Assembly (NCBI GenBank): GCA_905250025.1
Contig: CAJNOJ010000123.1
Span: 62,001-126,000, forward strand
DNA: 64,000 nt
Source of the DNA: Adineta ricciae
Lineage: Eukaryota; Rotifera; Eurotatoria; Adinetida; Adinetidae
Direction: 5' to 3'
Part shown: piece by piece, positions 1 through 51,029 of the stretch
Layout of the letters: every line of letters begins with the position of its first letter
Position numbering within the stretch: position 1 is the stretch's first letter
The notes under the pieces: generated by a model
Databases searched by the model: none
Told to the model about the DNA's origin: nothing
The model's input: only the letters and a program-made list of their open reading frames with translations
Program-made: the position numbers and the translations under genes

Positions 1-1
1 C

Positions 2-3000
2 GGTCGACTAGATATTCTCTTCAATTTTCTTCATTATATATCGAAGAAATGCTCAATCAGACCATTCTATTTAAACATGTTCAGAACACTCTTGAGAGAT
101 AATTCAATTATCTTAGTTTTACCCATCTTTCCTCCATTTGGTTCTTACAGAAAAATCGAACAAATCCAAGTCCATCGAGATTCAATAACACTGTATTCGG
201 TCACTGATGAAGAAAAACGTGCGAAAATCTTCGCTGAAGTGGAGGAGTCTTTTCGACAGAATCTTCCTTACACTGATCAATTGAAATTGTTAGACAACGA
301 GTATTCTAAGAACAGAATCAATGAATTATTCGCATTATGGCGATTGAATAAACAACTGCAAGACTTTATCAAACATATTGAGCAAATCATGGATTCGATC
401 AAGTACACGTCGATCGTTCGAATCCGAATTGGTCAACTACAAATTACACGTGAAATAGATGATAAACATCATCAAATTCAAGTTCGATCAGCGAATTTAC
501 CGGTCGATCCATTATTATTGCTGGGTGCTCATCGAAAGTATTGTTGTCATTCTTCCGATAATCCACTTTGTTTAAAACAATCAACTAGAATTTTTGAAGA
601 CAAAAAGCCGTTTCCCGAACAGATTTTTTCATCGACTAGTTCAGATGAGAATCATCTTAGTGACATAACCAAGTTCTTCAAGCAACAACTGCGGACAAGT
701 TGGCAAAAATTTCAGTCTGAGGAAAGATTTCAATGTGAGCATCTATCCATAAGCGAAATGGAGAGATTTCTGTGTTCGACTCGTCAAGAATCTGCTCAAC
801 TGTGGAAGGAATTGATTCGATTGATCAGAACAAACAATGAACTATTGTTCGATACTGGTTTAGCGTTGCGTATGACTCCATCCGTTCTCGTGTCTCTCCT
901 CCATGAAATATGGTTAAATGAAGATGAACACAAACATGATAAACCATCCAATTCTGCAAAAAAGCAAAAGGTTCAACAATCTGAAAGAGAAGCATTTCTA
1001 ACACCGGAACGATGTATCTTATTAGGTGGAATATTGGTCAACTGGACTGTTGAACAGCGTCTTCAACGAATAATCCATTGTGCCAATCAAAAACAAAAGG
1101 AAGATTTCGAGAAAGAAGCATTGAATATTCCACATGTAAATTGGATTCCTTCAGAACATGTTCCATGGTTGATTTTAGAATTGGAAATGAACATCACTAT
1201 TCGCGATATTCAAGTTAAAGTGGCACGTCATATGATGGATCCAAATCGACTCGATGGTGAAGATAATCAAGTGAGAAATATCGTCATGCAAATGAATATG
1301 GGCGAAGGAAAAACCTCAGTTATTATTCCCATGTTAGCACTTAGTTTGTGCTCATCAACATCGAGTTTAGTTCGAATCATAGTTCTCAAATCTTTGTTGA
1401 CTATGAATTATCAATCGTTGAGATCCAAATTGGGCGGTCTCCTCAATAGACGAGTTTTTCCATTTACATGTCGTCGCGATATGAAATTCGGTCAAACACA
1501 AGTCGAACAACTTGATCGACGTCTTCGGCAAGGTATGAGCAGACGAGATATTGTCTTAACCGCACCAGAATATATCCTTTCATTCGACTTATTAACTATC
1601 GATAAATGCCGACGACAAGAATTTACAGTTGGGGAAGAAATGTTAAGAGTTCAGCAATGGACTAAACGATGTGTTCGTGATGTTTTGGACGAATCCGATG
1701 AAATTCTTCATGTTAAGTATCAACTCATTTATACGATTGGACAGCAGAAACCAGTTAGCGGCGGAGCTCAACGTTGGAAGACGATTCAATTGGCCTTAGA
1801 ATTGGTAAAGAAAAACGCAGAGCTTATTGCACAAGACTATCCAAAAGACGTTCTCTACGAAAAATCGTTACGGTCAAGTCATTTTTCGTCATTTCGATTG
1901 TTATCACGAGAACCGTTTCGAAACTTAGCAGAAAGAGTAGTCAATGATTGGCTTAACGAGCAATCCTATCGTCAGGAAGAACGTCAACTTCTATCCTCGG
2001 TCATTTTAGAAAGCACTACGTCGACTGAATGCCTTCAGGGCCGATTTTCACAGGAGATTCTTCAACGAATACTTATTTTACGCGGCCTCCTTTCGTCTGA
2101 AGTATTGTTTCAAGCATTGACCAAACGTTACCGAGTGAATTTCGGTGTCAATCACGATCGGAAATTCAATCGTCTCATGGCTGTACCATTCCGTGCCAAA
2201 GATGTGGCAGCCGAGAATACAGAATTTGGTCATCCCGATATTGCCATTGTCTTAACTCAACTCTATTACTATTACGACGGATTAACTAATGATCAGCTGT
2301 CAAAGTGTTTCAAACGTTTGAGCGACGTAGAGAAGCACCCCGAAGAAATCTATCATGAATGGATTTTGTATGAAAATGGCGATTGTCTCGATCCGAGTAT
2401 CAAAACATGGGAAGGAATCAATTTAAAAGATGATCAACAAAGGACTCTTCATCTTTTCCCAACTTTTCGGAAAAATATGTTGGTGATCAATTATTTTCTC
2501 AATCATTTTGTTTTCCCTCAAGAGGCGAAACAGTATCCCGAAAAACTAGTCTCTTCTTCTTGGGATCTATCCACGGACCGTCGTGCAAAGATTCTGACTG
2601 GTTTCAGTGGCACTAATGATACACAACTGTTGTTACCCATCCATATTCGTCAACACGACCTACCCGAACTGATGAAAACTGATGCCGTTGTTCTCAACAA
2701 TCTACTTCGACAGGAAAATGAATTTTATCAGTCTCTACCAATTAGTATCAAAGTTAAAGATATCTTAGAGAAAATCTGCAGTGATCAACAGCGCATTCAA
2801 GTCGTTCTTGATGTTGGTGCGCTCTTCATCAATGGTAGTAACCGCCAAATAGCAATTCAATGGTTAGGAAAGTCAAATCGAGCTGAAATAGATTATGCTG
2901 TTTATTTCCAATCTGACTCACTTTATGTTTGTGATCGACAAAATCAGCATCACCCTTTCGCCAACTCTCCAGCGAGTGAAAGACTTGAACGTTGTGTTTT

Positions 3001-4471
3001 TTACCTGGATGAAGTTCACACACGAGGAACGGATTTCAAATTTCCAAAAGGATTTCGGGCAGTTGTTACACTTGGCAATGGTTCAACCAAAGATCGATTC
3101 GTTCAAGCTTGTATGAGAATGAGGAAACTAGGTCATGGCCACTCGCTCAGTTTTTATAGTTCACACGAAGTTGATCAACGAATTCGTCTGTTGAAAAAGA
3201 CCACCGATGAGAACGAATCTATCACGTTGATTGACGTTCTCCGTTGGGTCTATGAGAATATTCAACAAGCCGTTTGGAATGGTCTTCATCATTGGGCTGC
3301 ACAGAGTCTCAGTTATCAACGAAAACTCGCTGCATTTCGAAATATTCAATGGGTCGACGAACAGAAATACTTTTCTCCATTGATTATGCATCAATTTCCT
3401 TTAGATTGCATAGAACAAGAAGTTCTCGAGCTACACCAAATGTACGGAATGTCAAAATCAATGCAGAAGATAGCTGATATCCATCGTTCTCGTTCTCATC
3501 AAGTTAGTTTTCAACTGTCACCTGAGATCAATACACTTGTCCTAAGTCGGTTGAATTTATACGGTGGATCGAGAACATTTCTTGCTCATACATGCGATGA
3601 GGAACAAGAACGAGAGTTCGAACGAGAAATCGAACAAGAAGTTGAAGAAGAACGACAACAGGAACGACCAACACCACCAGTACCGCATCGACCAATCTTA
3701 CATGAAGAAATCAAGAAATTAGCTGATCAACAAAATCCTATGATGAACTTAGCTCAACTTTCATCAGTATTCTGTTCACTTCCACAAGCTTTTCTTGCTA
3801 CTACCTTTGCGTCACATAGCCAGCCATCGGCTTGGAAACAACACTTATGGATATCTAAGGAATTTCAAAGCGTGATTAAAACACGAGGAGAATCGTTGGA
3901 TGCATTTCTGCGACATCCACGGTGGATAGTTGTCTATCGTCAGAAACATATCATCTTTCTCAGTCCATACGAAGCTAATTGCTTGATCGATTTACTTCAG
4001 CACTCATATCAACAATGTGGAATTGCTTCTCAACCTACAACAACTCTACGTCTGTTTTTACCACGATTGAAAAGAAATCAGTCAATCTTAATCAATACAT
4101 CAACTTTGTCTGTCCCTTCATCATCTTTTTCTGTTCCGAAAGACTGGTTGGCACCATTGTTTGTTTTTAATGGTACTCTTTACTTCAGCGATGTCGAAGA
4201 ACAAAGAGACTACTGTCATTTCTTAGGCATTTGTCCAAATCCTCGATTGGAGAAGGACGAGCAGAACGCTTTTGAGAAAGGTTGGATCGATAATGATGGA
4301 TTTATCCAAAACTCGGAACATCGTCGTCATCTGCAAATGAACCAATGCCATTTTACTTATAATCCACTAAATTTAGTTAGAAAAATTCTCGAGAATCGAT
4401 TAAAATGCCATATTCCCGTTAGATCACATGTTGGATCACTTATTCTCAATGCAAAGAAAGTTTTGGTTTAA
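2..4471 (+). CDS. C-terminal part of a giant DUF3638/DUF3645-type P-loop protein (5' truncated by window edge)
   Basis: The reading frame is open from base 2 to the stop at 4471 with no intron, so the Met at 77 is probably internal and the gene starts outside the window. About 1,490 residues are present; family members are usually over 2,500. Counting from that Met, residues near 407 read QMNMGEGKTSVIIPM, a Walker-A-like site typical of the DUF3638 family. Near residue 540 comes an acidic DVLDESDEIL stretch. Around residues 980-1035 (LDEVHTRGTDFKFP, then QACMRMRKLGHG) the pattern recalls a C-terminal helicase-type domain. A charged EQEREFEREIEQEVEEE segment near residue 1180 is also characteristic. 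The family occurs in fungi, protists and some animals and is annotated as large NTPases of unknown role. ATPase activity is inferred from the P-loop only. The closest alternative is another SecA/helicase-like protein. Confidence 0.8.
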   Translation, partial: GRLDILFNFLHYISKKCSIRPFYLNMFRTLLRDNSIILVLPIFPPFGSYRKIEQIQVHRDSITLYSVTDEEKRAKIFAEVEESFRQNLPYTDQLKLLDNEYSKNRINELFALWRLNKQLQDFIKHIEQIMDSIKYTSIVRIRIGQLQITREIDDKHHQIQVRSANLPVDPLLLLGAHRKYCCHSSDNPLCLKQSTRIFEDKKPFPEQIFSSTSSDENHLSDITKFFKQQLRTSWQKFQSEERFQCEHLSISEMERFLCSTRQESAQLWKELIRLIRTNNELLFDTGLALRMTPSVLVSLLHEIWLNEDEHKHDKPSNSAKKQKVQQSEREAFLTPERCILLGGILVNWTVEQRLQRIIHCANQKQKEDFEKEALNIPHVNWIPSEHVPWLILELEMNITIRDIQVKVARHMMDPNRLDGEDNQVRNIVMQMNMGEGKTSVIIPMLALSLCSSTSSLVRIIVLKSLLTMNYQSLRSKLGGLLNRRVFPFTCRRDMKFGQTQVEQLDRRLRQGMSRRDIVLTAPEYILSFDLLTIDKCRRQEFTVGEEMLRVQQWTKRCVRDVLDESDEILHVKYQLIYTIGQQKPVSGGAQRWKTIQLALELVKKNAELIAQDYPKDVLYEKSLRSSHFSSFRLLSREPFRNLAERVVNDWLNEQSYRQEERQLLSSVILESTTSTECLQGRFSQEILQRILILRGLLSSEVLFQALTKRYRVNFGVNHDRKFNRLMAVPFRAKDVAAENTEFGHPDIAIVLTQLYYYYDGLTNDQLSKCFKRLSDVEKHPEEIYHEWILYENGDCLDPSIKTWEGINLKDDQQRTLHLFPTFRKNMLVINYFLNHFVFPQEAKQYPEKLVSSSWDLSTDRRAKILTGFSGTNDTQLLLPIHIRQHDLPELMKTDAVVLNNLLRQENEFYQSLPISIKVKDILEKICSDQQRIQVVLDVGALFINGSNRQIAIQWLGKSNRAEIDYAVYFQSDSLYVCDRQNQHHPFANSPASERLERCVFYLDEVHTRGTDFKFPKGFRAVVTLGNGSTKDRFVQACMRMRKLGHGHSLSFYSSHEVDQRIRLLKKTTDENESITLIDVLRWVYENIQQAVWNGLHHWAAQSLSYQRKLAAFRNIQWVDEQKYFSPLIMHQFPLDCIEQEVLELHQMYGMSKSMQKIADIHRSRSHQVSFQLSPEINTLVLSRLNLYGGSRTFLAHTCDEEQEREFEREIEQEVEEERQQERPTPPVPHRPILHEEIKKLADQQNPMMNLAQLSSVFCSLPQAFLATTFASHSQPSAWKQHLWISKEFQSVIKTRGESLDAFLRHPRWIVVYRQKHIIFLSPYEANCLIDLLQHSYQQCGIASQPTTTLRLFLPRLKRNQSILINTSTLSVPSSSFSVPKDWLAPLFVFNGTLYFSDVEEQRDYCHFLGICPNPRLEKDEQNAFEKGWIDNDGFIQNSEHRRHLQMNQCHFTYNPLNLVRKILENRLKCHIPVRSHVGSLILNAKKVLV

Positions 4472-4865
4472 TTTTGAACAGTAACTTTGTGATGTCGAGT
4501 TTTTTCGATTTCATCTTTTTTATTTGAATAATAATCACGAAAACACATAGCCATTGATTGAACTTATTACTTTGTCTGTACGGCGTAGCGCTTGTTGTCA
4601 GGCATGTATTTAAACGTGATGACTATGTCGAACGTAACTAGAATAATCATCTCTAATTTCAAGCTTTCACAATGGAATATTTTTCTCATCAATCCTGAGT
4701 AGAAAGAACTTTTGTTACCGCACGGTACGCTACATTATTATCGACTCTAAATAAATTTTATTTCGAATGAAGTTATTGGCAACTTTCAGTTGAACTTAGA
4801 AATACATTTCAACGAACGAAAACAAACTTCTATGTTATTAGTTGACAGTTCTCACTTGTCAATAG
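4472..4865. other. Convergent intergenic region
   Basis: This AT-rich stretch lies between the stop of the DUF3638-type gene (+) and the stop of the MACPF gene (-). It must hold both 3' untranslated regions. I see no gene or repeat in it. Confidence 0.5.
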
Positions 4866-6695
4866 CTATGTTTTTGAACAATAGTAAAGGCCACCGTTTG
4901 TCGTCCTGGCCGGAGTATAGTCACGTGGACACAGCTGAGTGTTGTTATTACCACAAGAAATAAATGGACTTGCATAACCACACGCTGTGCCAGAAGCGTC
5001 ATCTATATCAGCGTCGTCTTTGTAGCATAAAACTGCATTTTTCTCAAAACGATAACCGTGTGGGCAACCTTCGTTTAAAATATGCTTTCCTCCACAATAT
5101 TTATGAATTTTTATCTGTCCGTAGTTTGTAACAGGTACAGACTTGTCCTGCTTTGAACACTAAAGAAAGATAAATCAAGACTATCATAACAGTTCGATTT
5201 GAGATGACGAAAACTTACGATAGTCGTCAAAACATAATGAAGAATATCCATCAGGACAACTACGAAGTGGGTGATGACCGTCACAAGCAATTTGACCGTT
5301 TTTATTGAACACAAAACCACATGACACACCTCTTGGCACATCCAATGGAATATTGCTTGAACAATCTACGCTTACAATTTAATCGAAGACATAATAATAA
5401 TCATACCATAATTAAGTCGATTGAACTAACATACACACATAGGAAATCTCATAAACTATACTTAATATACTCTATGTATTGAGAACACTATATTTTTCTC
5501 TTTTTACTTCATCAACTCACCAGTATACATGGATTTGCATACACAATATGGTATATTGAGATCACCCCATTTACAAGTACCTCTAGCTGATCCGGAACAA
5601 TTGCGAGGACAACCCTTCAATTTTAAACCTTTCGTGTAATCATTTAAAGCTAGAGTCATTCGGAAATCTACGCGATGTTATCAAATCCGATATATATTTA
5701 ACCTTAAACTTCATCATGCTCGGATTATTCGGTACTGTTTCGATCCAGTTAGCTAAGGGTCCAGAGACCAAAGCTGGGTCACCACCCAGTTGTGACATCT
5801 TCGTCGACGTCAGGTTTTTACGAAACTCCTCTTGTGTAGTTGTGGTAGAATTTGATATAGTAGTAATACTACCAAGCAATTTAAAAACATAACCAGGTGA
5901 TACACAATGCTGAGTTTGTAAGCCTCGAGTTTTGAGTTCGGTGAGTCGTTCAGAATCTATGGTAATAATCTCTTGAGCAGTACCACCCAGTAACATTTCA
6001 CTCACAAATGAAAAACCGAAATAATCGAAAATATACGATATGATATAGTCCTTTATATCATTATCATAACTGCAACAAGGCATGTGTTCAATCACGAAAC
6101 GAAAACTGTCGGATAACTGCATCATTGGTTCCAACATAGTAAGCTTAGCGAATGTGATATTTGCTGTTGTATGAAATATCGACTGTCTCTTTTCAATAAG
6201 TGTTTCAGCCAAATATGTTGTTTGTCTGGAATATCCATAAGAAGCAAAGAATCCTTCTAGTTTCCCCCAACCGTATATTGTAGCACTTGTACTTATCGCA
6301 TTGAAAGTCGATTGTCGTAATTGAGATATTGAGCTTAATTCTTCAGTATGTGCATTAATTGCCACACTCGGTAAACACAAAAGTTGTGTATAAGCAGGTA
6401 CTGTGAGATTTGTACATGCACCTGGCTTCCATGAAGTATACTCAAGATTAAATACTGAATGTTTGAAACCATCCATGTGACAATCTCCAGTATAACAGAC
6501 AGGTGATCCTTGTATTGGATCATAGCCTATTCCAATTAAATTCGAATTTGGCATCCAATGAAGATTGCGATAAGCTTTTGTACTGTTGTGTAGGTAACTT
6601 TCAACAAATGCTCTCAGCCTAGCATATTCAGGATAAGCAAACAACAAAAATGGACATAAACTAAGGTAATACAAAAACAACATCACCGTATGCAT
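4866..6695 (-). CDS. Secreted MACPF (perforin-like) protein with cysteine-rich C-terminal tail
   Basis: The Met at 6695 is preferred over the one at 6836 because a signal peptide follows at once (hydrophobic MLFLYYLSLCPFLLFA). Exon 1 (5703-6695) encodes about 331 residues with a MACPF core. The signature YIFDYFG...LLGG sits near residues 221-238, with Phe-Ser where many members have Thr-His. A GWGKLEG segment and the usual long amphipathic helix regions precede it. Likely further exons (5521-5614, 5219-5365, 4866-about 5160) encode Cys-rich modules with CPxGY motifs. The first three exons join in phase with GT-AG introns. The last exon does not join in phase with any obvious acceptor, so the 3' model is approximate or the gene carries an indel. 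MACPF proteins oligomerise into membrane pores in immunity or predation. Whether this one is active cannot be read from the sequence. Confidence 0.8.
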
Positions 6696-7193
6696 TCTTT
6701 TTCGGTCATGTAAACACAATATTCTGTTTTTATACTTTATGAATACTAAAACCATATGTGTGATTTCACAGACACTTTTGCACGATTCTACTCGATGATA
6801 GCTTTTTTCGTCACTTGCAAAAATTAGATAGTCCAAGTGCTCTTTTTCTCATAATACGTGAGTCACTATAAAAAATTTTTCACACGGTTCTCCCAAAAAT
6901 TTTCGGCGAAGACTAACTTTACCACTATGAAACACAGATATATTTAGGATTAGCGCTTTGTTTTATAATCTAAAACTGTTTGTGTGCCCTGTTTTCGATC
7001 CTTCAATGAGTTGTTTTCGAAAAATAAATTCCGTCACACGACGCAGCGCGTGAAGCTCTGCAAGTTGAATACGAGTAAGGTGGACGGACTATTCGTCGCA
7101 CGATTACTCGTGTAATTCATTTGTTGTAAAAAGATGCACGATGTTTAATGAAACAGATTCAAGAAAAACACAACTAAATATGTCATACTTCTG
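6696..7193. other. Intergenic region upstream of MACPF gene
   Basis: It should contain the promoter of the MACPF gene. I see no coding segment, and the sequence is single-copy up to the start of the tandem duplication at about 7194. Confidence 0.4.
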
Positions 7194-7897
7194 ATTAAAA
7201 TAGTATCAGATACTAGTGCCTTTTTATGAAAAACGGATCCTATCAGAAATGTACAAGGTTTCATAGTATATTCTGTACACTAAAACGCTGAAATACTAAC
7301 TGAAAGCGTATTCTAATGAAAATCTTCATTGGGAAGTAAAACTCATTTTATATAACAATCCGTATTTTCAGCTAATTTGTATTTGACGAAATTCTTCTAG
7401 ATTTTCACTAACAAGAAGAGATTCTTTTGAAAAATCAGTTAAATATTTGCTAAATGAACTATGATAAAAGTCACTCACTACTTTATAGAACCTTTTCAGT
7501 CAGAGTTTCTCCGACTTTCTAGTTGGTTCACGAGATTCGAAAATTTCACCAACAGTTAGGTTGCACTCAATGTCACACTAACGAGATTGTTGGTGATAGT
7601 GTGATTTTCCTATTCATCGAATTATGCAAATAACACTGCCAATTAATAATATTATTTTGGCGCCGTATTGTCCTAGTGCCTAAAATAATGACAAAGACAA
7701 CCTTCACTTCATATGTGCCCGATGTTTTTTTCCTTTGTCATATTCTATGAAATCAACAATCTTCCTCAATAGTACTTTTACTCATAAAACGACGTTTTTT
7801 CCCTTGTTTGAATATATTTTTATTATTATACTAAGATCTAATTTATCTACGAACAATTATCAACTAGTATATCTCTAATCATATACATCTCAATTTG

Positions 7898-8401
7898 TCA
7901 GTTCAGACGCTTAATATAACTACTGGGTAGTTCAGACGATGCACAGGCAATGATTGATTCGTCGTTTGCTCGGCAATCCTCCACAAACATAATTTGAGCA
8001 AATTCATCAATAACTTCTATTGGATATGTTGGTCCACAATCACGATATCGACGCATTTCATCGAGATGATCATTTTGAAAACATACCGTCTTCTGCGGTT
8101 CATTCATAACCCATCGAGGAAAGAAAATTGTACCATGAAGATGACGTTCATTCAAATTAATTGACAAACTAACCGATGTGCCAGTAGGTTCAGTCCATGA
8201 AAGTTTGAAAATTTCTTCCGTTGATGATAATTTTACTAAATGAACTTGTTGGTCTTTCACCCATCGACCACCGACGATGCCTGAATGTATTCGATAATCA
8301 ATCGTGTGATCATTTTTAACGTATATTTCATATTGCCATCCATTATCATACTTGTATATAAGATGTTTTCCAACAATATTACTCACTGATTCGCTCATCA
8401 T
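7898..8401 (-). CDS. Phenolic acid decarboxylase (copy A), bacterial/fungal type
   Basis: The single-exon 167-residue protein has the length and layout of phenolic acid decarboxylases, small lipocalin-like beta barrels that decarboxylate ferulic, p-coumaric and caffeic acid to vinylphenols without cofactor. Diagnostic segments are HLIYKYDNGWQYE (residues 13-25), KNDHTIDYRIHSG (29-41), GRWVKDQ (45-51), SWTEPTGT (68-75) and LHGTIFFPRWV near residue 90-100. Tyr16, Tyr18, Arg46 and Glu71 match the catalytic Tyr/Tyr/Arg/Glu of the Bacillus enzyme. The first of two consecutive ATGs is taken as start. It is divergent from the P450 gene with about 350 bases between starts. Such genes are not native to animals, so transfer from bacteria or fungi is inferred. 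The intronless ORF fits this, but flanking P450 introns and the duplicate copy argue against contamination. Confidence 0.95.
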   Translation of the reverse strand: MMSESVSNIVGKHLIYKYDNGWQYEIYVKNDHTIDYRIHSGIVGGRWVKDQQVHLVKLSSTEEIFKLSWTEPTGTSVSLSINLNERHLHGTIFFPRWVMNEPQKTVCFQNDHLDEMRRYRDCGPTYPIEVIDEFAQIMFVEDCRANDESIIACASSELPSSYIKRLN

Positions 8402-8748
8402 GAAGGAAAATGATCAAACTAAAATAGAATCAAACAGAGATAGAATAAGATACACTTTAACTTGTCCTCTCTGTTATGCTTTTCGTTTCAATTGAAAGAT
8501 AGAATGAATACAATGCTCTTCTCTCTCTCTGGATATCGTGTGGACTCGTCGGAAAAGTGAAGAGAACGTAAGAAGAACGCATGATACTGAGGATAAGGCG
8601 AACTTTCATGAATATATCGATCAAAGTATGATAACAAAGTGTGACTCATTTATCAAATATATCTTTTACGTTCTTTCTAAACTATTTGCATGTTTTGTCG
8701 ATAAGAAAACGACTGTTTGTTGGTTGCTTCATACATTTCGTAAAAAAT
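8402..8748. promoter_or_regulatory. Shared divergent promoter region, copy A
   Basis: About 350 bases separate the decarboxylase ATG (-) and the P450 ATG (+). The region is conserved in copy B and contains a CT-rich tract near 8517-8531. It presumably drives both genes and may co-regulate them. No specific site can be assigned. Confidence 0.4.
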
Positions 8749-10353
8749 ATGTTGACTTCTCTCGCTGTTATCGGATGCATTTCATTTGTTCTATATCGTT
8801 TAATAAAATTCTGGATACTTGATCCGTGGTCTATTCATCGATATTTTTGGAAACAAGGCATCCCGGGACAATATACACCAATCGTTGGCAGTCTTCTCGA
8901 TCGTCGTCGAGCATTTCTTGCTGATGATCCATTGTCACATGGTAGAAAATTAGCAGAAAAATACGGTGATTATTATCATAATTCATTTGGTCCAAAAGCT
9001 CATCTTGTCATAAGTGATCCATTGTTAATCGAAGGAGTTGCGAAGGCAAATGTCTATTCGTATCATAAATCGGCAGTAGGACAGACGATCCTTGCATCAT
9101 TACTTGGCTATGGAAATATTCTATTGGCCGAAGGTGATGATCACAAGCGACATCGACGATTGGTTGCACCTGTCTTTCAACATCAGAATATCAATTCAAT
9201 GCTTTCTCTCATGGCACAGATAACGAATCGTTTCCTAGAAAAATGGACAACATTAAGTGAAAATCGAGCTACAGATGACCCGTTGACACTTGATATTCAT
9301 GAAGAACTGTCAGGACTTACATTAGATATTGTAATTGGATGTATTTTCGGTGCAGAGACTATGGAAGATAAGAATGTTCATGGAATTATCTTTCGAAACA
9401 TGAATATAGCTTTGAAGGAGATGGAGAAACGAATATTTAATATGATTGGTTTACTTCCAATAGTTAAGGATTTGCCATTAGCTGGAAAACGACGTATTGA
9501 TCAAGCGAGACAAGAGATTCAACAGGTTGTTCAAAATATAATCAATCAACGATTGAAAGGATTGACAAAATCGACATGTAAAGGTTCAGACTTACTCGAT
9601 CTTCTTCTGGCATCGAAAGGTGATGAAAAAACACAAAAGCTTTCTCAAGAAGAAATTTCCAATGAGGCAATTACATTTGGTAATATTCTCTTCATTCGAA
9701 ATCTTTCTCTCTAATCTCTTACATAGTTCTTGCTGGACATGAAACAACATCAACACTAATGGCATGGACACTTTATAATTTAGCAAATCATCCTAACAGT
9801 TATCAACAATGTCAAGCTGAAGTTGATTCGATTCTTCTTAATGACGAACTAAATATCTCCACTATTTCTCTATTGACTTATACAGAAATGGTCTTGAAAG
9901 AATCATTACGGACTCATCAACCTGTGGCAGTTATGCTTCGTACAGCCGTTGAAGATAATACAATCGTAGCAAGCGATGGAAAACCAATTCACATAAGAAA
10001 AGGAACTGATATTGAAATTAATTTGAATGTTTTACATCGATCGGAAAAATATTGGCACGAACCGAATAAGTTTAATCCATCGAGATTCGAGGAACGTGGT
10101 GCAGATAAGTTATTAGCTTTTAATATAGGACCTCGATCTTGTATTGGTCAGAATTTTGCGATGTTAGAAGCCAAAATTATGTTAGCATTGATTATCAAAC
10201 ATTTTCATTTTGAGCTTGTACCTGGACAAAAATTTACACCTGATGTGGCCGTTACAATTAGGTTAGTTATATCAAATAGTTCTTTTTTCTTCATCTTTCT
10301 ATATATTTAGACCGAAATATGGTATGTGGATGCGCATTTGGCCGCGTAAGTAA
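8749..10353 (+). CDS. Cytochrome P450 (copy A), membrane-anchored
   Basis: Three exons (8749-9679, 9727-10261, 10311-10353) separated by 47- and 49-base GT-AG introns encode 502 residues, a normal microsomal P450 length. The chosen ATG is the first in frame that gives an N-terminal anchor (SLAVIGCISFVLYRLI). Visible landmarks are the I-helix VLAGHETTS, created by joining exons 1 and 2, the K-helix ESLR, and the haem loop FNIGPRSCIGQNFA with the thiolate Cys. The protein ends KYGMWMRIWPRK in exon 3. It is a monooxygenase of the endoplasmic reticulum using a reductase partner. Clan assignment (CYP3/CYP4-like) is tentative. Its tight divergent pairing with a phenolic acid decarboxylase suggests a shared role with plant phenolics, which is inference. 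Confidence 0.94.
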
Positions 10354-10707
10354 TCATCGAACTAACGTTTCGTGTCATTTTTCTATTGAGACATAAATAA
10401 ATATTTTCTCGTTTGAGAACTCAGTTCAGAAGTACCAATTACGTACAGATAGTCTCAAGATTTAAAAAANGACATCGGACTCAACTTTCCTTGTAGTACA
10501 TTTACTAGACAAATACATCGTTAAATCACTAAAAATTATTATGCAAAACAAGCAAATTTAATGGTTGATTAGCACTAAATCTTTTACTGATTATAAATCA
10601 ATTCATACTGATCAAAAGCGATTTTTTACTGACTAAAAATAACGAACTGACCATTTACAAAAATACTGACCATTTACAATAAAATACTGACCATTTAATT
10701 TGTACCC
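10354..10707. other. Junction between duplication copies
   Basis: Copy A runs to an ambiguous base at 10470. The following about 240 bases are single-copy and contain short direct repeats of 'aaaatactgaccattta' near 10660-10700. No gene is seen. Confidence 0.5.
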
Positions 10708-11338
10708 ATTAAAATAGTATCAGATACTAGTGCTTTTTTTATGAAAAACGGATCCTATCAGAAATGTACAAGGTTTCATAGTATATTCTGTACACTAAAA
10801 CGCTGAAATACTAACTGAAAGCGTGTTCTAATCAAAATCTTCATTGGGAAGTACAACTCATTTTGTATAACAACCTGTATTTTCAGCTAATTTGTATTTG
10901 ACGAAATCCTTCTAGACTTTCACTAACAAGACGAGATTTTTTCGAAAAATCAGTTAAATATTTGCTAAATGAACTATGATAAAAGTCACTCACTACTTTA
11001 TAGAACCTTTTCAGTCAGAGTTTCTCCGACTTTCTAGCTGATTCACGAGATTCAAAAATTTCACCAACAGTTAGGTTGCACTCAGTGTCACACTAACGAG
11101 ATTGTGGGTGATAGTGTGATTTTCCTATTCATCGAATTATGCATATAACACTGCCAATTAATAATATTATTTTAGCGACGTATTGTCCTAAAATCAACAA
11201 TCTTCCTCAATAGTACTTTTACTCATAAAACGACGTTTTTCCCCTATGTTTAAATACATTTTTTTATTACACTTCGATCTAAGTTATGTATGAACAATCA
11301 TCAAATAGTATAACTCTAATCATATGAATCTCAATTTG

Positions 11339-11842
11339 TCAGTTCAGACGTTTAATATAACTACTGGGTAATTCAGACGATGCACAGGCAATGATTGTTT
11401 CGTCGTTTGCTCGGCAATCTTCCACAAACATAATTTGAGCAAATTCATCAATAACTTCTATTGGATATGTTGGTCCACAGTCACGATATCGACACATTTC
11501 ATCGAGATGATCATTTTGAAAACATATCGTTTTCTGCGGTTCATTCATAACCCATCGAGGAAAGAAAATTGTTCCATGAAGACGACGTTCATTCAAATTG
11601 ATCGACAAACTAACCGATGTACCAGTAGGTTCAGTCCATGAAAGTTTGAAAATATCTTCCGCTGATGATAATTTTACTAAATGAACTTCTTGGTCTTTCA
11701 CCCATCGACCACCAACGATACCTGAATGTATTCGATAGTCAATCGTGTGATCGTTTTTAACGTATATTTCATATTGCCATCCGTTATCGTACTTGTATAT
11801 AAGGTGTTTTCCAACAATATTGCTCACTGATTCGCTCATCAT
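11339..11842 (-). CDS. Phenolic acid decarboxylase (copy B)
   Basis: This 167-residue paralogue differs from copy A at about seven positions, for example Q52E, T61A and E63D. All four putative catalytic residues (Tyr16, Tyr18, Arg46, Glu71) and the core SWTEPTGT and GTIFFPRWV segments are intact, and there is no stop or frameshift. Both copies therefore look functional and under constraint. It is divergent from P450 copy B, as in copy A. Reaction and origin are as inferred for copy A: non-oxidative decarboxylation of hydroxycinnamic acids, with the gene gained by horizontal transfer before the duplication. Confidence 0.95.
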   Translation of the reverse strand: MMSESVSNIVGKHLIYKYDNGWQYEIYVKNDHTIDYRIHSGIVGGRWVKDQEVHLVKLSSAEDIFKLSWTEPTGTSVSLSINLNERRLHGTIFFPRWVMNEPQKTICFQNDHLDEMCRYRDCGPTYPIEVIDEFAQIMFVEDCRANDETIIACASSELPSSYIKRLN

Positions 11843-12185
11843 GAAGGAAAATGTTTAAGCTAAAATAGAATCACATAGAGATAGAATAAGATGTACTTTA
11901 ACTTGACCTCTCTGCTATGCTTCTCGTTTCAATTGAAAGATAGAATGAATACAATGATCTTCTCTCTCTATATATATCTTGTGGGTTCGTCGGAAAAGTA
12001 AAGAGAACGTACGAAGAACGCATGATACCCAGGATAAGGCGAACTTTCATGAATATATTGATCAAAGGGCGATAACAAAGTGTGACTCATTTATCGAATG
12101 TATCTTTTACGTTCTTCTTAGCCCATTCGCATGTTTTGTCGATAAGAAAACGACAGTTGGTTGCTTCATACATTTCGTAAAAAAC
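11843..12185. promoter_or_regulatory. Shared divergent promoter region, copy B
   Basis: This 343-base interval between the divergent starts of decarboxylase B and P450 B matches the copy A interval, with substitutions and small indels, and includes the CT-rich tract near 11961-11970. A bidirectional promoter is inferred. Confidence 0.4.
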
Positions 12186-13790
12186 ATGTTGACTTATCTC
12201 GTTGTTATCGGGTGCATTTCATTTGTTCTATATCGTTTAATAAAGTTCTGGGTACTTGATCCGTGGTCTATTCATCGATATTTTTGGAAACAAGGCATCC
12301 CGGGACAATATACACCAATCGTCGGCAGTCTTCTCGAACGTCGTCGAGCATTTCTTGCTGATGATCCATTGTCACATGGTAGAAGATTAGCGGAAAAATA
12401 CGGTGATTATTATCATAGTTCATTTGGACCAAAAGCTCATCTTGTCATAAGTGATCCATCATTAATCGAAGGAGTTGCGAAGGCAAATGCCTATTCGTAT
12501 CATAAATCGGCAGTAGGACAGACAATTCTTGCATCATTACTTGGCTATGGAAATATTCTATTGGCCGAAGGTGATGATCACAAGCGACATCGACGACTGG
12601 TTGCGCCTGTCTTTCAGCATCAGAATATCAATTCGATGTTTTCCCTGATGGCACAGATAACGAATCGTTTCTTGGAAAAATGGACAATATTAAGTGAAAA
12701 TCGAGCTACAGACGACCCATTGACACTTGATATTCATGAAGAATTGTCAGGACTTACGTTAGATATTGTAATTGGATGTATTTTCGGTGCAGAGACTATG
12801 GAAGATAAGAATGTTCATGGGATTATCTTTCAAAATATGAATATAGCTTTGAAGGAGATGGAGAAACGAATATTTAATATGATTGGTTTACTTCCAATAG
12901 TTAAGGATTTGCCATTAGCTGGAAAACAACGTATCGATCAAGCGAGACAAGAGATTCAACAGGTTGTTCAAAACATAATCAATCAACGATTGAAAGGGTT
13001 GACAAAATCGACTTGTAAAGGTTCAGACTTACTCGATCTTCTTCTGGCATCGAAAGGTGATGAAAAAACGCAAAAATTTTCTCAACAAGAAATTTCCAAT
13101 GAGGCGATCACATTCGGTAATATTCTCTTCATTCGAAATCTTTCTCTCTTATCTCTTACATAGTTCTTGCTGGACATGAAACAACATCAACGCTGATGGC
13201 ATGGACACTTTATAATTTAGCAAATCATCCTGACAGTTATCAGCAATGTCAAACAGAAGTTGATTCGATTCTTCTCAATGACGAACTAAATATCTCCACT
13301 ATTTCCCTATTGACTTATACAGAAATGGTCTTGAAAGAATCATTACGGACTCATCAACCTGTGCCAGTTATGCTTCGCACAGCAGTTGAAGATAATACAA
13401 TCGTAGCAAGTGATGGAAAACAAATTCACATAAGAAAAGGAACTGATATTGAAATTAATTTGAATGTTTTACATCGATCGGAAAAATATTGGCACGAACC
13501 GAATAAGTTTAATCCATCGAGATTCGAGGAACGTAGTGCAGATAAGTTATTAGCTTTTAATATAGGACCTCGATCGTGTATTGGTCAGAATTTTGCGATG
13601 TTAGAAGCCAAAATTATGTTAGCATTGATTATCAAACATTTTCATTTTGAGCTTGTGCCTGGACAGAAATTTACACCTGATGTGGCCGTTACCATTAGGT
13701 TAGTTATATCAAATAGTTCTTTTTTCTTCATCTTTCTATATATTTAGACCGAAATATGGTATGTGGATGCGCATTTGGCCTCGTAAATAA
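12186..13790 (+). CDS. Cytochrome P450 (copy B), membrane-anchored
   Basis: Exons 12186-13116, 13164-13698 and 13748-13790 give 502 residues, with exon lengths identical to copy A. The same membrane anchor, AGHETTS I-helix, ESLR K-helix and FNIGPRSCIGQNF haem loop are present, so the enzyme should be functional. Substitutions such as Thr/Ile and Lys/Arg are scattered and there is no disabling change. Upstream the frame is open without an ATG, so the ATG before the anchor is chosen, as in copy A. It pairs with decarboxylase copy B. Confidence 0.94.
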
Positions 13791-13950
13791 TCATCGAACT
13801 ATCGTTTCGTGTCATTTTTCTATTGAGACGTAAATAAATATTCACTCGTTTGAGAAGTCAGTTCAGAAGTACTAATTACGTACTGATAGTCTCAGGATTT
13901 TCAAAAAAATATACACTGGAAAAACGTTGCTGACAGAATCCATTTTTCTT

Positions 13951-14283: not shown

Positions 14284-14715
14284 TTATTTGTCTTCGAATA
14301 AATCATCAGGATATCTAGTTTCATCAATAACATGAACAAGATTGTCGCCATTTAGTTTTTCAGTCAAAATTCGAATATTTGGCTGATCAATTTCGTGTTC
14401 TGCTTGTTCAATTCTTTCTAATTCTTCTGTAATATTATCTATTAGTCGATATTCTATTTGATCTTCTTTCAACAAAGCGCGAAGTCGTAGACGCAACTGT
14501 TTGATTGATTCCAAATTATTCGCTGCTCTTTCAATAATCTGATTTCGATGTTTTTCCACCATAATATTGATTTCTTTTTGCACCTGTTCATAAACATCAT
14601 CAATCTGTTGATAACAACTGACCTTCCATTGATCTAATTGTTCGCGAATATCATTCAGATAATCCAATGTGACCATTGTTTGATTTTTGTCAATTTGATG
14701 AAAATGTTCGTACAT
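14284..14715 (-). CDS. Coiled-coil protein, related to the coil of B-box/NHL proteins
   Basis: The 143-residue single-exon protein is almost entirely helical and charged. A segment near residues 29-60 (EQLDQWKVSCYQQID) resembles the 'IDQWEKDSI' coil in the two B-box/NHL proteins at 22.3 and 26.4 kb. It lacks the zinc-binding B-box before it and NHL repeats after it. Either it is a stand-alone coiled-coil adaptor or a remnant of a TRIM-like gene. The ATG at 14715 is the first available. Confidence 0.5.
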   Translation of the reverse strand: MYEHFHQIDKNQTMVTLDYLNDIREQLDQWKVSCYQQIDDVYEQVQKEINIMVEKHRNQIIERAANNLESIKQLRLRLRALLKEDQIEYRLIDNITEELERIEQAEHEIDQPNIRILTEKLNGDNLVHVIDETRYPDDLFEDK

Positions 14716-15153
14716 TGTGTTCTTTTGAGGGTGTGGGTGAGGGTTTTATCGTATGTTTCATTTCTGTCGCGTTTGTACTATGCGTCTGAAACGTGTTTAC
14801 ATTCGCAAACTTTTCACATGTGATGGATTGTTATTCTTACATTCTAAACTGCACCACCCTCACTCTTTTTTCTTTAATTGTTTCGAATACTTATGCCCTT
14901 TACATTTTAGTAGTTCAACTTTTTTTTTCTTCGATATTTTTATACTTCGACATTGTTATGCTTCGATATTTTCCGTTGGATTTTTCTACATTCGACATTT
15001 TTACTTTCGGTCTTAGTTGAGTGAATCGTTTTTAAAAGATTTTATAGAAAACTAATCAGTTTGGTCGGTATGATCATAGAGAGCGAATGAAACTCCTTCA
15101 AATACAAATCAATGAAAAAGTAAAGTCTGAGTTTCAAAATAAACGTTTTTTTA
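14716..15153. other. Pyrimidine-rich intergenic region
   Basis: T-rich on the + strand (for example 14880-15010) with open frames that look like low-complexity chance ORFs. It lies between the start of the coiled-coil ORF and the stop of the modular secreted gene. No gene is called. Confidence 0.4.
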
Positions 15154-18100
15154 TCAGGGAGTTTTGGTGAATGTATTGGTTTTCGAATTGAATATTAATG
15201 TCAATGTCGGACTGATTGTGCTTTCTGAGCCCACAGGCACAGCATTTGCCGTGTTAGCGGCGTATTGCATGAAAGATCCAGTGGAAGACTCTAAAGATTA
15301 AGAGAAAAATATCGTCGACTAATTAGTAAGAAGTCACTCACCCTGAACCCCAATAGTGGCGTATGCTCCTCCATCATCAGCCTGAAAGTATCGAATGGTA
15401 ACAATACCCAGAGAATTTTCATCGAAGATAACTTGAACAGCAGTGTTCAGATTTCTCTGAAAAGAAATTTCGGAAATTACAGAAATTACCTATTAGTATT
15501 ATTCACTAGTTCCAGATAACATAACATAGCTAAACGCAAAAACACTTCCAATAACAAAAGTAAAGTAGAAATTTCGGTAATTTCAGAAATTTCAATGATA
15601 GTTCATGAAGAATATTCATTTATCCAGAGAGACGAAGGGTCAGATTCAGTAGAAGTTTCGGAAATTTCAGAAATTTCAATGAAAGTTCATGAGAAATATT
15701 CATTTATCTGGAGAGGACGAGGGTAAGATTCAATAGGAATTTTTGAAATTACCGAAATTTCCGAAATTTCTACTGAATCTGACCCTTCGTCTCTCTGGAT
15801 AAATGAATATTTCTCATGAACTATCATTGAAATTTCTGAAATTACAGAAATTTCTTCTGAATCTGACCCTTCGTCTCTCTAGATAAATGAATATTCTTCA
15901 TGAACTATCATTGAAATTTCTGAAATTACCGAAATTTCTACTTTACTTTTGTTATTGGAAGTGTTTTTGCGTTTAGCTATGTTATGTTATCTGGAACTAG
16001 TGAATAATACTAATAGGTAATTTCCGAAATTTCTTTTCAGAGAAATCTGAACATACCTCAACTTGAAAACGATAAAGCTGCGAACTGCGTGAAGCGTAGT
16101 ATTCAATAGTGAACTGTCGATTTGGAACTCCTCCAGTTGTCGAATAATAGATGCCTTGTGATGTTGTGCCATGTGCAAGATATAGATCATCCCAGAACGC
16201 AAAAATCGTTGCGTTGGAAAAGGAGCTACTTGGCAAGTTTGTGTTAAGATAGTCCATTGAGCATCCACCAAAACACACAACCTACGAGAAAAATTTTATG
16301 TAGCAAGAGAGTTTCCTCTATAAATTAGAATCACAATGTAGAAACATATGAAATCGAAGTATATGAGAGTGAAACATCAATCATACAGTCGGAAAACGAG
16401 TCGAAAAAAGTACGAAAATGCCTCATGTACTGATGCAGCTTTGTAAAGAAAGTATCTTACTTTTTTTAGATAGTTACATAAGCATCTGAGACATATTTGC
16501 ACAGTTCTTTACGCATTCCTCAATTAAACAGCCCAGAAATTTTCAGAATGTAGAATAATAGTCGAAATATTAACGCCCTAAATATGTATTGTGTATCTGA
16601 CTCTTTCGATGGCTCAATATCAGAAACCAATGAAGTCGTTTATCTTTGGTAGGATTATATGATATTGTAGGACTATGTTCTACAATCCTCGAATTTTTGA
16701 CTACGCGACTGTTTTCCAAGCATATGGAAAATGAAAACTACTACCGGTTTTGCTTGTGGAAGCATAAAATGTAATAGAATTTGGCACAAACGAAGCTCAA
16801 GAGAAAAACTACAAATTTTGAGGTTGCAAGGATACGAGCTTTCCTCCTTGAGAGTATCTAAAATGCGTTTTGAGTCTTGATGAACTGTTAGAATGTGGAT
16901 ATATTAATCTGGAAATGAAATTAATACTTACTCCATTGCTTGACAACGTAAGAGTAAATGTTCGATAGTTGTAAAATTCCACGTAGAAGGGCAAAGTAAT
17001 GCTCGTTGTTTGGTCATCTACAGTGCCGGTATCGCCCCAACTTGAAATTATCATTGGATCCTGTAATACTACAGGTGGTATAGTGGTGCTACAAATGCCA
17101 TTTGAACAGCTGATGTCGCTTCCTGAGCACACAACGCCGATCCCACCGCAATTATTGAAATTCACTCTAGTGTTAACACATGTACCCGACGCAGATGGTT
17201 GAGAATCTGTAGGACAACTTATTTGTACTAAAAAAGCAAAAGATTGATTAGCCGCTGTAATAACAGCAATATATTCGTTCATATTTACTCACTAGCACAT
17301 GTTGGTCCTGCCAATCCCAAGAGACATTGACAAACTCCAGCTGCAATGCATGTACCACCATTTAGACAGGGCGAGTGGCAAGTGGCTAAATACAAAATAC
17401 GACGAAGTTTTAAGTTGTGGAACAGGTCATCTCATGGATCATTTGAGGATGTCATTCATAGAAAGAAGATTTTTCTCCTTCTCGTTCCACTCTTTCACAT
17501 TGTATGGTTCCTCATCTGCACACTTTCAATTATGTGTGCCTTGTATCTCTAGCTGCCGCTGTTACATGAACAGAAATACTTCGCTGGAGCATCTTTTGTC
17601 AGAAATTCCGTCATTAGCAAAGCTATTAGCCAAAAGGAACTGGCTGACGAAATGAAACTTAGACGAATATGAGCTACTCACAACTGATATCAGATTACCT
17701 GGCATTAATACACTTCTATTCAACTAATTTGCGATTGCAAAACTTCAATATACACGGTACTCTGAATAACAATCGAACTCCGAAAGAGTATTGCAAAGCG
17801 CATATATCTCTATCACCATTCAATCATTCTGCGTGGTTCTATGACCTGCAGTTAAGCGGTACCTCTCATCGCATTTCCAAAATAACATTACATACCACAA
17901 AAAGCCATTATAACAATTGCCAAACAAACAATCTGAGCCCGTATTACATCCAATTCCATCGGGACATTTCTGTCCCGGAGCACAATTTCCACCACAATCA
18001 ATGCCAGTCTCTCCAGAGTCGAGTATGTCATTATTGCATTCAGTAGCTATAAATAACTCGATCATTCACTTAGGATTCTGTATCATTTGCTATTATACTT

Positions 18101-18870: not shown

Positions 18871-19218
18871 CTAGAAAGTACAGTATTGGAGCGAATATGA
18901 TGGATTTTGATGAATACCCGTCGTACCGATACTATGACATCACTCAATATCACAATAGCAACGTTGACGTCACCAAATTGCTTTTAATTATGATGCTGAT
19001 CACTTGGTATCAAACGCATATCGATATTAATGTGAAGACATGGGTATATACATCAAAAGTTATAAGCCCAAAACAAGTTCTCTGACTTTTGCGTATGTTG
19101 ATATATTAATGATAATAAGTTTTGTATTTATTGTTTTATAAATTTAAAATTTCAAAAGAAAAAAAAAGAGTTTGTATTATACGTCTATACGTTGTACGTT
19201 ATGATTTATTGTTATTAA
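18871..19218. other. Region where the modular gene's first exon should lie
   Basis: A good acceptor (ctttctag) ends at 18871, so an exon is expected upstream on the - strand, but I find no signal-peptide ORF before the phospholipase gene. A purine-rich run lies near 19150-19170. Confidence 0.35.
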
Positions 19219-19602
19219 TTAATCGTCAAACAGCTTTTTGGCACATTTGCTATTAAGTTGATCTCGTCGGAAAGATGGAATACCACCGCCACGCACAGCC
19301 GTATACATGCTAGTTGCAATTGTAGAACATTCACGAGAAACTGGAGTTTGTCGAGAGCATGCAGTTTTCAAGCAAGTATAAAACCTATCATCGCAGACTG
19401 ATCGCTTGTTGCCACATGTTTGATAGCATGCATCGTGCTGTACGCAGCAAGGAATAAGTGTATTGCGATTAAGCTTCTGCAGAAGTTTATCAATATTAAG
19501 TCCCATAGGGCCACAGCCCGCAGTACTTCGAAGGACTCGAACTAGAGGACTCATTGAAACCATATTAACCAGTAGAAAGAGACACAGAAGATGGGTATAC
19601 AT
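19219..19602 (-). CDS. Secreted phospholipase A2, group XII-like
   Basis: The 127-residue single-exon protein starts with a signal peptide (MYTHLLCLFLLVNMVSM). The core CCVQHDACYQTCG near residues 52-64 holds the His-Asp catalytic dyad, and the following RSVCDDRFYTCLKTAC pattern of paired cysteines fits secreted PLA2 of the group XII/conodipine-like branch. A CGPMG segment at about residue 30 would contribute to calcium binding but departs from the canonical CGxGG loop. The enzyme would hydrolyse the sn-2 ester of phospholipids outside the cell. The frame is intact. An intron-free gene with this motif spacing could also derive from fungal or bacterial PLA2; I cannot decide. Confidence 0.8.
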   Translation of the reverse strand: MYTHLLCLFLLVNMVSMSPLVRVLRSTAGCGPMGLNIDKLLQKLNRNTLIPCCVQHDACYQTCGNKRSVCDDRFYTCLKTACSRQTPVSRECSTIATSMYTAVRGGGIPSFRRDQLNSKCAKKLFDD

Positions 19603-20221
19603 AACAGGCGTAAACGAACGTTGTCAAGCGATAAAAATTTTGGAACGTTGATTCGAGTTATATAGTATTGACAAAAGGTAAGATGGGGATTGTCCTTGAG
19701 AGTCAAAACATCGGCAAATGAATGGATAATTACTGTTATTACAGCCAAGGGTTGCTTTCCTATACTTTGATCATGACTTGTTCGGACGGGTATATGCTAA
19801 TCAAGCGTAAAGATAGATAAGAGTTGGCGAAAAGGCCGGTCGATTGAATTTTTGTTTTAATTAGAAAATAACGGAAGTGATAAGAAACCATAACTTGTGA
19901 CGCATTTCGTATGTGGCTTAGTCGCTCCTCAACGTCGAATTTGATTAATATGACTCGTTATAAAACCATGAAATCGAGAGAGCAATCTAAATCATCGAAT
20001 ATCTGTCAAAAAATGACGAGTAAAGACACAATGAAAACGTTTGAATTGAATTATCCCGTCTAAATCGAGTAGGTCGGCTTCGTTCACCTTCTGTCATATT
20101 ATATATAAATCAGTTGTATTTTGTTTGCCATGAATAGTGCATAGTTTGGTGCAGATCGTTTATTCACAAAATCAAATGAAATATAGGACTTATTGAAAAA
20201 AGATTTTGACAAATTTGTAGA
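19603..20221. other. Intergenic region
   Basis: AT-rich, no coding segment or repeat recognised. It carries the promoter of the phospholipase gene on the - strand. Confidence 0.4.
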
Positions 20222-21150
20222 AAATCTTTTAAATTATTAATACCTTCAATAGCAGTTGCGGAATCTGTTCTTTTGTCATTGTTGAAATCACTACTATAAC
20301 TACAGATATCGGCAGTGCTATATAACCAACTGACAACATTTCGAGATCATCAAATGAACCATTGCCGAAGCCAAGAAAAATACCAACGTTACTAGAACAA
20401 TGATTGGCCATGGTAACATCCAGAAATGTATCGTTATTGTAATCAATAATATTAACTGCCCATGGCTCGCTTTGATAGCGAACGTTGAAAGTTCGATTTT
20501 GGCTTGAAAAAGATCGATTAGAATGCTTATATAATAAACGCACAATTTTGTCATCAAGATTAGTCGCGACAAAATCTAGTTGGTGATCTCGATTAAAGTC
20601 GCTAACAATGAAAGAGTTCAGTCGAGATCCACTACCAGTCGCCAGCGTTTGTTGTCGTACGAAAGCTTTATTCGTATATCCAAGAAACACACTTGCAATT
20701 GTATCATAAAGACTAACAACGACAACAACATTTGGTCGACTGTCGTTCTTAAAATTAGCAAATGTGATAGTGCCAAGTCAACTACCAGTTGAATATGTTT
20801 CTTGGTTTTCAAAAGTACCATCGGCATGTCCTAGTAAAAGGCTTATAGTATTATCACCAAAATTGGTCACAGCAATGTCCAATCAACTGTCGTTATTTAA
20901 CTCCTTGATAGCTATTGAAGATGGATAAAGGCCAGATGAATATAATATGGGATTGTCGAAAGAATAATTAGTATTTCCGAGAAATATGTTTAGAGTATTG
21001 CGACCATCACTGCTGGCAACCATATCTAGCCAAGTGGTATTATTGAAATTATTGAAGGTAATTGAATACGGATGAAAGTTGTAGTCGGTTAAGAGAATTC
21101 TTCGATATGAGATGTAACTGCTTCCATTTCCTGCCTGGTCAGACAAGGCT
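20222..21150 (-). pseudogene. FG-GAP/VCBS-repeat protein, decayed
   Basis: On the - strand a nearly continuous series of FG-GAP/VCBS units can be read, each with a DFNxDxxxD calcium-loop-like core (VSDFNRDHQLDFVATN, IKELNNDS.LDIAV, FANFKNDSRPNVVV) and LGFGNGSF/LGHADGTF caps. Two in-frame TGA codons at 20883-20885 and 20778-20780 stand where the repeat consensus expects Arg; both are explained by CGA-to-TGA transitions. Near 20280 the frame shifts, since the next unit (SDFNNDKRTDSATAIEG) reads only in another frame. Intact relatives are large secreted or surface beta-propeller proteins. The start is not visible. Confidence 0.85.
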
Positions 21151-22122
21151 GATTTTTACAGCACTGTTACACATTCAATTAGACGTTTTAACACTAAAAA
21201 GAACTTCTCTCTTGAAAACAAACGGTATATATTAACGCATTATCACGCGAAAAAATCTGTGTGTGTGTGTGTGTGTGTGAACGGATCAAAACATGGCATT
21301 TTTAACTTTTTTGTCTGTCGAGGCTGTGTTCCGTGGCGGTACATTGTTTCGTCTAATGTCTGTTGTCTTCAATCTACGATTCAATTATGAATAGCTGATG
21401 CTGCTTACAATGTAGGATATTATCTTAGTAAGTAAAGTATATAACAATACGAAGCTTCTGAATCCTAACATCTCTACATGATTGACTCATGTAATACTAA
21501 TTTGTGCGTATGAAACTTTGAATCATTGGAAAATGTTTTTGTATTGTGAAAATAGTCAAGTTTCGATGGAATAAAACTGAGCATTTGATTAGATATAGTT
21601 TTTGAAACATAGCGCATTGAAATAACTTAATTTGAGACATTTTCTTTTTCAGAAAGCTGAACCATTCCACATCAACTTCTTTTCGTGATCCAACTTCATT
21701 GTCAAATCAAAACAATATACGAACATTCATTATCGAACTAAATGCATTTGTAAAATATTCTTTTCTCATACTGATGTCTGTATAAAATACATGTTCTTTC
21801 TTCTCTTATTTATTGTACAGCCTTATTTCGCGCTTTTTTTTGTATCATCAAATATTTTTTAAAAATTCGAACATTTTCATACCGATCCCTTAATAAACGG
21901 ATTTACATGCTATATGAATAAGGATTGAAAAATTCAATCGTTCATCAAAAACCGTACCTAGTTCTGACGCCCTCTGCAGGACACCTGTATATTGAACCGA
22001 TATGGTTGAGCGTGTTCAATCGATATACATCTGCTTACTGTTCTCTACCTTTTTTTTCTATGTTTGACACGTGTATTTCGACATTGGTTCGTTTTTTTAT
22101 TCATATTGTACGATAAAATATC
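21151..22122. other. Intergenic region with a (GT)n microsatellite
   Basis: A GT dinucleotide run of about 20 bases lies at 21259-21278. The remainder is AT-rich without recognisable genes and precedes the B-box/NHL gene. Confidence 0.5.
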
Positions 22123-50965: not shown

Positions 50966-51029
50966 TCGGAATCAGCATTTTCACTATGTTTCTTCATAAA
51001 AAAGTCCGCGTTTAAAAAAGCTTACTTAC

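Follow-up and report, generated by a model that had tools for sequence, protein, structure and literature searches.

Phenolic acid decarboxylases (PADs) carry out a cofactor-free acid–base decarboxylation of 4-hydroxycinnamic acids to 4-vinylphenols. Bacterial members with solved structures include 4uu3/3nx1, a 'ferulic acid decarboxylase' that we take to be from Enterobacter sp. Px6-4, and 8adx, 'Phenolic acid decarboxylase N55'. Two Tyr, an Arg and a Glu are the catalytic residues of LpPAD from Lactobacillus, and the 168-aa CgPAD of the yeast Candida guilliermondii has the corresponding residues (PMC3402150). Transfer of a bacterial PAD to a multicellular eukaryote has been reported for the fern Ceratopteris, which has 26 PAD genes, 21 of them arising via tandem duplications (PMC9477723), and in bdelloid rotifers foreign enzyme genes are expressed and have been suggested to potentiate toxin degradation (PMC3499245). 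Here, we describe two PAD genes, each divergent to a cytochrome P450 gene, in a 64,000-nt stretch of the bdelloid Adineta ricciae (assembly GCA_905250025.1, contig CAJNOJ010000123.1, positions 62,001–126,000; hereafter the window). The best explanation of the whole, to which we give a probability of roughly 0.7, is a single locus at which a bacterial-type PAD stands divergent to a P450 of an expanded family, the two units being allelic. The two units comprise the following features:

7898..8401, minus strand: PAD copy 1, 167 aa, intronless, without internal stops
8402..8748, no strand: divergent intergenic stretch of copy 1, 347 bp between start codons
8749..10353, plus strand: P450 copy 1, exons 8749–9679, 9727–10261 and 10311–10353, 502 aa
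11339..11842, minus strand: PAD copy 2, 167 aa, without internal stops
11843..12185, no strand: divergent intergenic stretch of copy 2, 343 bp between start codons
12186..13790, plus strand: P450 copy 2, exons 12186–13116, 13164–13698 and 13748–13790, 502 aa

The preliminary description had reported two intact PAD copies standing head-to-head with intron-bearing P450 genes, four putative catalytic residues kept in both and equal P450 intron lengths, and each of these points was borne out. Both PADs match the family profile PF05870 above its cut-off of 24.6 bits (copy 1, 271.2 bits, E value 3e-81; copy 2, 270.0 bits, E value 7e-81), with alignments spanning profile positions 2–156 of 158, and copy 1 aligns over nearly its full length with the solved chains 8adx (E value 3e-80) and 4uu3 (E value 2e-77). 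A profile search of the 130-Mb assembly, which may be incomplete, returned no third PF05870 place beyond the two window sites. Each P450 copy has one intron of 47 nt and one of 49 nt, an agreement that is to be expected because the copies are ~95 % identical, and all four introns begin with GT and end with AG.

For comparison we used 90 bacterial PADs, comprising 74 loci from one genome-contig scan, 11 from 398 Pseudomonadota genomes (12 had a PAD match, 11 above the cut-off) and five from plasmid records. Residues Y16, Y18, R46 and E71, the corresponding catalytic Tyr, Tyr, Arg and Glu, are present in both window copies and are conserved in 89, 90, 89 and 90 of the aligned bacterial sequences, respectively; their equivalence to the LpPAD residues is assigned from motif context, not from an alignment with the LpPAD sequence. 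The window PAD thus resembles the bacterial enzymes (4uu3/3nx1 and 8adx) in its near full-length match and its four catalytic residues, but differs from them at several positions: K17, between the catalytic tyrosines, is T in 90/90 bacterial PADs, a two-residue insert at 60–61 is absent from 90/90, and M138 and R144 stand where 89/90 have T and G. Judging from family and residues, it would most likely act by cofactor-free acid–base decarboxylation, turning p-coumaric, ferulic and caffeic acid into 4-vinylphenols, and its role may be the detoxification of plant phenolics ingested with food.

The best 15 of the 90 bacterial PADs are 62–68 % identical to the window PAD (maximum 67.7 %). In a protein tree of 88 bacterial and two window sequences (bacterial rows only apart from the window; L159 and L162 dropped as identical to others), the window pair forms a lone branch of length 0.39 nested inside bacterial diversity. 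It shares a weakly supported fork (81/32) with enterobacterial and Actinomycetospora PADs, next to which lie four rows that are alphaproteobacterial or unnamed, while Bacillota and a second Pantoea clade fall outside the window PADs' part of the tree when drawn from its midpoint. The window PAD looks to be of bacterial type and source, and we infer a transfer from bacteria to animal. The earlier wording had been 'bacterial/fungal-type', of which the bacterial half is supported and the fungal half disfavoured: a fungal donor is unlikely, because the characterised yeast PAD, although similar in length and catalytic residues, is only 25–39 % identical to bacterial PADs by published values (PMC3402150), with no fungal sequence aligned here, while the window PAD reaches 67.7 %. 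The Ceratopteris case is alike in that a multicellular eukaryote is reported to have received its PAD from bacteria, but differs in its plant host, chromosome-level assembly and many copies (PMC9477723), whereas the window holds two, probably alleles, beside a P450.

The PAD genes have a GC content of 0.37 and third-position GC (GC3) of 0.27–0.29, close to the neighbouring P450 (GC 0.37, GC3 0.25) and below the GC of 0.49–0.71 spanned by 31 bacterial PADs; the GC content of the window is 34 % and that published for the A. ricciae genome is 35.6 % (PMC5916493). No N lies within either PAD–P450 unit. The PAD gene looks ameliorated and domesticated in its host because its GC and GC3 match those of the P450, its GC falls outside the bacterial range and the units contain no N. 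Both genes are under purifying selection in both copies, with ratios of non-synonymous to synonymous substitution (dN/dS) between copies of 0.095 for PAD (P=6e-8) and 0.106 for P450 (P=9e-18), as calculated with our own Nei–Gojobori script.

The P450 proteins match PF00067 with 297 and 302 bits, and copy 1 carries the motifs AGHETT (313), ESLR (369) and FNIGPRSCIG (442), found as identical strings in the copy 2 protein, which we take to be the I-helix, ExxR and heme-Cys motifs. The best solved chain is LUTEIN DEFICIENT 5 (163–168 bits), presumably CYP97A3. A hydrophobic N-terminus, recognised by eye, suggests that the P450 is probably a membrane-anchored monooxygenase. P450-matching places number 89 in the genome of A. 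ricciae. Of these, 30 loci were cut, and 23 rows from them entered a tree that also took in both window copies, two solved P450s and 14 of 16 bacterial loci; left out of it were L029, L031 and L032, as further pieces, and L142 and L143, as too short. The window P450s and 17 of the 23 own-genome rows, namely a relative on contig C320 and 16 others, form a single clade with support of 100/99, separate from the sampled bacterial rows, and the six remaining own rows are placed elsewhere. From this own-genome clade, the window P450 therefore belongs to a family expanded in the host genome. The earlier view of a foreign PAD beside an intron-bearing P450 of the host is supported by this expanded family, together with the absence of N inside the units, the host-like GC and the purifying selection.

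The C320 relative is 51–67 % identical to the window P450 and appears to be intron-bearing. The 16 other members, sister to the window copies plus the C320 gene, look intronless because each matches within a single open frame (508–616 aa); they lie on C2, C23, C70, C89, C94, C98, C130, C132, C139, C145, C280, C399, C582 and C597, and could possibly be retrocopies or of foreign origin. A bacterial origin of the window P450 was considered but found no support: P450 matches occur in 126 of the 398 Pseudomonadota genomes, the best reaching 175 bits (32 % identity), below the 312 bits of the best own-genome relative. A bacterial PAD–P450 cluster was likewise set aside as a source, as a P450 lies near only two of the 90 bacterial PAD loci (L068 and L069; 25–28 % identity; flanks of about 0.1–3 kb examined), which we take as chance.

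The preliminary description had also held that the divergent promoters were conserved in both copies. This did not withstand comparison: the intergenic stretch is identical at 308/343 positions (89.8 %) between copies, the lowest of nine blocks, whereas the remaining non-coding blocks reach 798/841 (94.9 %; Fisher P=0.003), and so is not the more conserved non-coding DNA. Identity is 95.2 % in PAD, 95–97 % in the P450 exons, 98–100 % in the introns, 94.6 % in the left flank and 93.1 % in the right flank. PAD and P450 may share a promoter, but conservation is no argument for it.

The further claim, that the module had been amplified, met the difficulty that the tandem arrangement rests on a join at a single N between the copies, which the preliminary description did not mention, and that the divergence between the copies is roughly that seen between homologous contigs. 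The features around this join and the flanks are as follows:

7064..7678, no strand: interspersed repeat with 75–81 % matches on other contigs
10470..10470, no strand: single N, join of the two units, at which copy 1 homology (to 10469) stops exactly
10471..10707, plus strand: right 237 bp of a 524-bp inverted-repeat element resembling a miniature inverted-repeat transposable element, the left 287 bp missing at the N
10708..11338, no strand: left flank of copy 2, homologous to 7194–7897 (94.6 % of ungapped columns)
14332..17059, no strand: right flank with a counterpart on contig C608 (pieces 95–96 %, one 89 %)

Copy-to-copy homology spans 7194–10469 and 10708–13908 and starts inside the interspersed repeat at 7194, the point at which the inverted-repeat element breaks into copy 2. 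The partial element at 10471–10707 is 98–99 % identical to copies on C658, C227 and C559. Directly after it comes ATTAAAATA, which may be a 9-bp target duplication; the complete C658 element is flanked by a 9-bp repeat, GATGTTTAA. Copy 2 looks like the homologous locus with an element insertion, its true left side lost behind the N, because copy 1 carries the ATTAAAATA site without interruption at 7194–7202. No duplication breakpoint or unit boundary is visible in the window, since the N cuts off the homology at one end and the truncated element does so at the other. The 524-bp element on C658 (L039, 1214–1737) has CCCACA repeats in its left half, the part that the window lacks; these are of the telomere-like TGTGGG type.

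Joins at N in this assembly are unreliable. Of 12 N sites, 6 are flanked by direct repeats that are 120 bp or longer and at least 90 % identical, position 10470 counted among the six, compared with 5 of 300 controls (P=3e-7; 0/150 in the window and 5/150 in N-free own loci). The 12 sites come from the window and from own-genome loci fetched for other reasons, and 6 of them have less than 1 kb on one side. Four of the six repeat-flanked sites are end overlaps with 99.5–100 % identity, and on C89, C183 and C280 three further pairs of near-identical P450s are each separated by one or more single Ns. The scaffolder SSPACE writes a negative gap as a single n. Elsewhere in the window, N runs (47 and 1) occur at 22109–22503 and 23823–24265 with flanking ends of 174 bp (100 %) and 221 bp (99.5 % identical), which look like unmerged overlapping contig ends and not tandem repeats. 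A 4.8-kb segment also occurs twice, at 35728–40490 and 58961–63735 (93.9 % identity; C662 holds a third, partial copy); the second starts 1.2 kb past a single N (57714) that precedes a 104-bp palindrome, and could represent a further allele placed in the scaffold.

The two PAD–P450 copies are 94.3–95.7 % identical, with synonymous divergence (dS) of 0.154 and 0.187. Published values for A. ricciae homologues are a median divergence of 4.55 % and a mean Ks of 0.135, with a Ks of 1.267 for ohnologues (PMC5916493). In our search for homologous contigs, which left out 21575–29999, C321 is 91–92 % identical to 18877–21574 over most of that stretch (short pieces down to 80 %) and 93 % identical to 30000–36108, C89 is 86 % identical to 50000–58000, and C195, at 66–69 % identity, is a probable ohnologue. 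The divergence between copies (94–96 % identity) therefore falls in the range of homologous contigs, which are mostly 91–96 % identical with some pieces at 80–89 %. Within the right flank, 15438–16059 holds an inverted repeat (15473–16033; 278-nt arms, 93 % complementary, 5-nt spacer), has a 97 % identical sequence on C658 and is missing from the homologous C608; it is therefore probably a mobile element insertion.

On these grounds, we consider it likely that the tandem units are an allelic misjoin, in which the scaffolder would have joined two homologous copies of the locus head-to-tail at a single N that falls within a palindromic element. Several observations weigh against this. The left flank (1–7193) has no ~95 % counterpart in the assembly searched; candidates tried there were only relatives of 64–72 % identity for 1–4399 and short repeat matches of 78–82 % for 4400–7198. 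To the left of its homologue of 14332, C608 runs into ORFs (open reading frames) that look retroelement-like by eye and not into PAD–P450, as read to C608:36000 of 39106. One of these, a 661-aa ORF (L137, 977–2962; C608:30976–32961) adjoining the homologue of 14332–14728, resembles, on inspection by eye, a reverse transcriptase of the Penelope type whose end is GIY-YIG-like. The other 6 of the 12 N sites lack flanking repeats of the kind described, no N was seen within the 1.5-kb flanks examined for a P450 pair on C132, and a genuine tandem duplication of equal age predicts identical dS. Same-scaffold linkage of this kind is also unlikely to be common, because only two homologous blocks shared a scaffold in the published A. 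ricciae assembly, although the same source cautions that scaffolding errors may lie behind some of the breaks in collinearity at scaffold Ns (PMC5916493). The gaps at C608 and in the left flank would fit allelism if the homologous piece is missing from the assembly searched or carries an insertion.

A true tandem duplication would place both units on one haplotype, the second later interrupted by the inverted-repeat element, with the other haplotype having lost the locus or being absent from the assembly. We regard this as unlikely, though it accounts for two intact units under purifying selection that share one contig and one orientation, for the retroelement-like ORFs that C608 has in place of PAD–P450 as far as read, and for the lack of a second left-flank copy in the assembly searched. 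What tells against it is that its breakpoint is invisible, that a single N takes the place of at least 287 bp of the element, that N joins here often abut near-copies, that the divergence resembles that between homologues and that a dS of 0.15–0.19 predicts four units where two PADs were found, in an assembly that may be incomplete. Placement of the PAD beside animal sequence by bacterial contamination or a chimaeric assembly would explain an intronless gene of bacterial sequence, but is extremely improbable: no N separates PAD from the intron-bearing P450 in either unit, two diverged copies share the same junction, and the PAD has a host-like GC outside the range of the 31 bacterial PADs. That the two genes form a co-regulated two-step module, in which 4-vinylphenols from the PAD would be oxidised by the P450 under one bidirectional promoter, is suggested by the head-to-head arrangement with 343–347 bp between starts in both copies, by similar constraint on both genes and by the plausibility, from general knowledge, of both enzyme classes in xenobiotic metabolism. 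We find this reading quite improbable, however, as no block is less conserved than the intergenic stretch between the two genes, the C320 P450 relative has no PAD in the 4.6 kb examined around it (no PAD remnant was found within C320:76898–81497) and genes lying close together are nothing unusual in compact bdelloid genomes, the mean intergenic distance in Adineta being 1.2–1.4 kb (PMC5916493). A P450 step after the PAD is possible but unsupported. Rather doubtful, too, is the wider proposal that a domesticated bacterial PAD on both homologous chromosomes is co-regulated with a P450 of a lineage-specific expansion as a phenolic detoxification route, with K17 and the insert marking an altered substrate range.

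Other genes in the window, identified by domain match, are as follows:

80–4468, plus strand: DUF3638/DUF3645 protein
5643–6689, minus strand: MACPF (perforin-like) domain protein
19222–19602, minus strand: group XII secretory phospholipase A2-like ORF

In addition, two adjacent ORFs at 43382–45857 contain putative repeated TIR-type domains, recognised by eye.

Our full-text search found no literature linking phenolic acid decarboxylase to bdelloids or rotifers; among the papers listed, one on sponge-associated archaea contains the enzyme's name. The word 'phenolic' is absent from the main text of two bdelloid papers, one on foreign transcripts and one on horizontal gene transfer (PMC3499245 and PMC4632278; supplements outside the search), and neither 'phenolic' nor 'decarboxylase' occurs in the main text of a metazoan horizontal gene transfer compendium (PMC13342648; supplements likewise outside the search). 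The find here is a bacterial-type PAD in an animal; foreign metabolic enzymes in bdelloids and bacterial PADs in ferns were already known, and the window PAD, as a foreign enzyme gene, is akin to the acquired metabolic enzymes described from bdelloids (PMC3499245). In highly heterozygous draft assemblies, apparent tandem amplification of a foreign gene should not be taken for adaptive duplication until single-N joins have been looked for. If the PAD is active, it would be a further bacterial PAD in a multicellular eukaryote after the ferns, here in an animal, and would offer a cheap, assayable test of plant-compound detoxification by the foreign genes of bdelloids.

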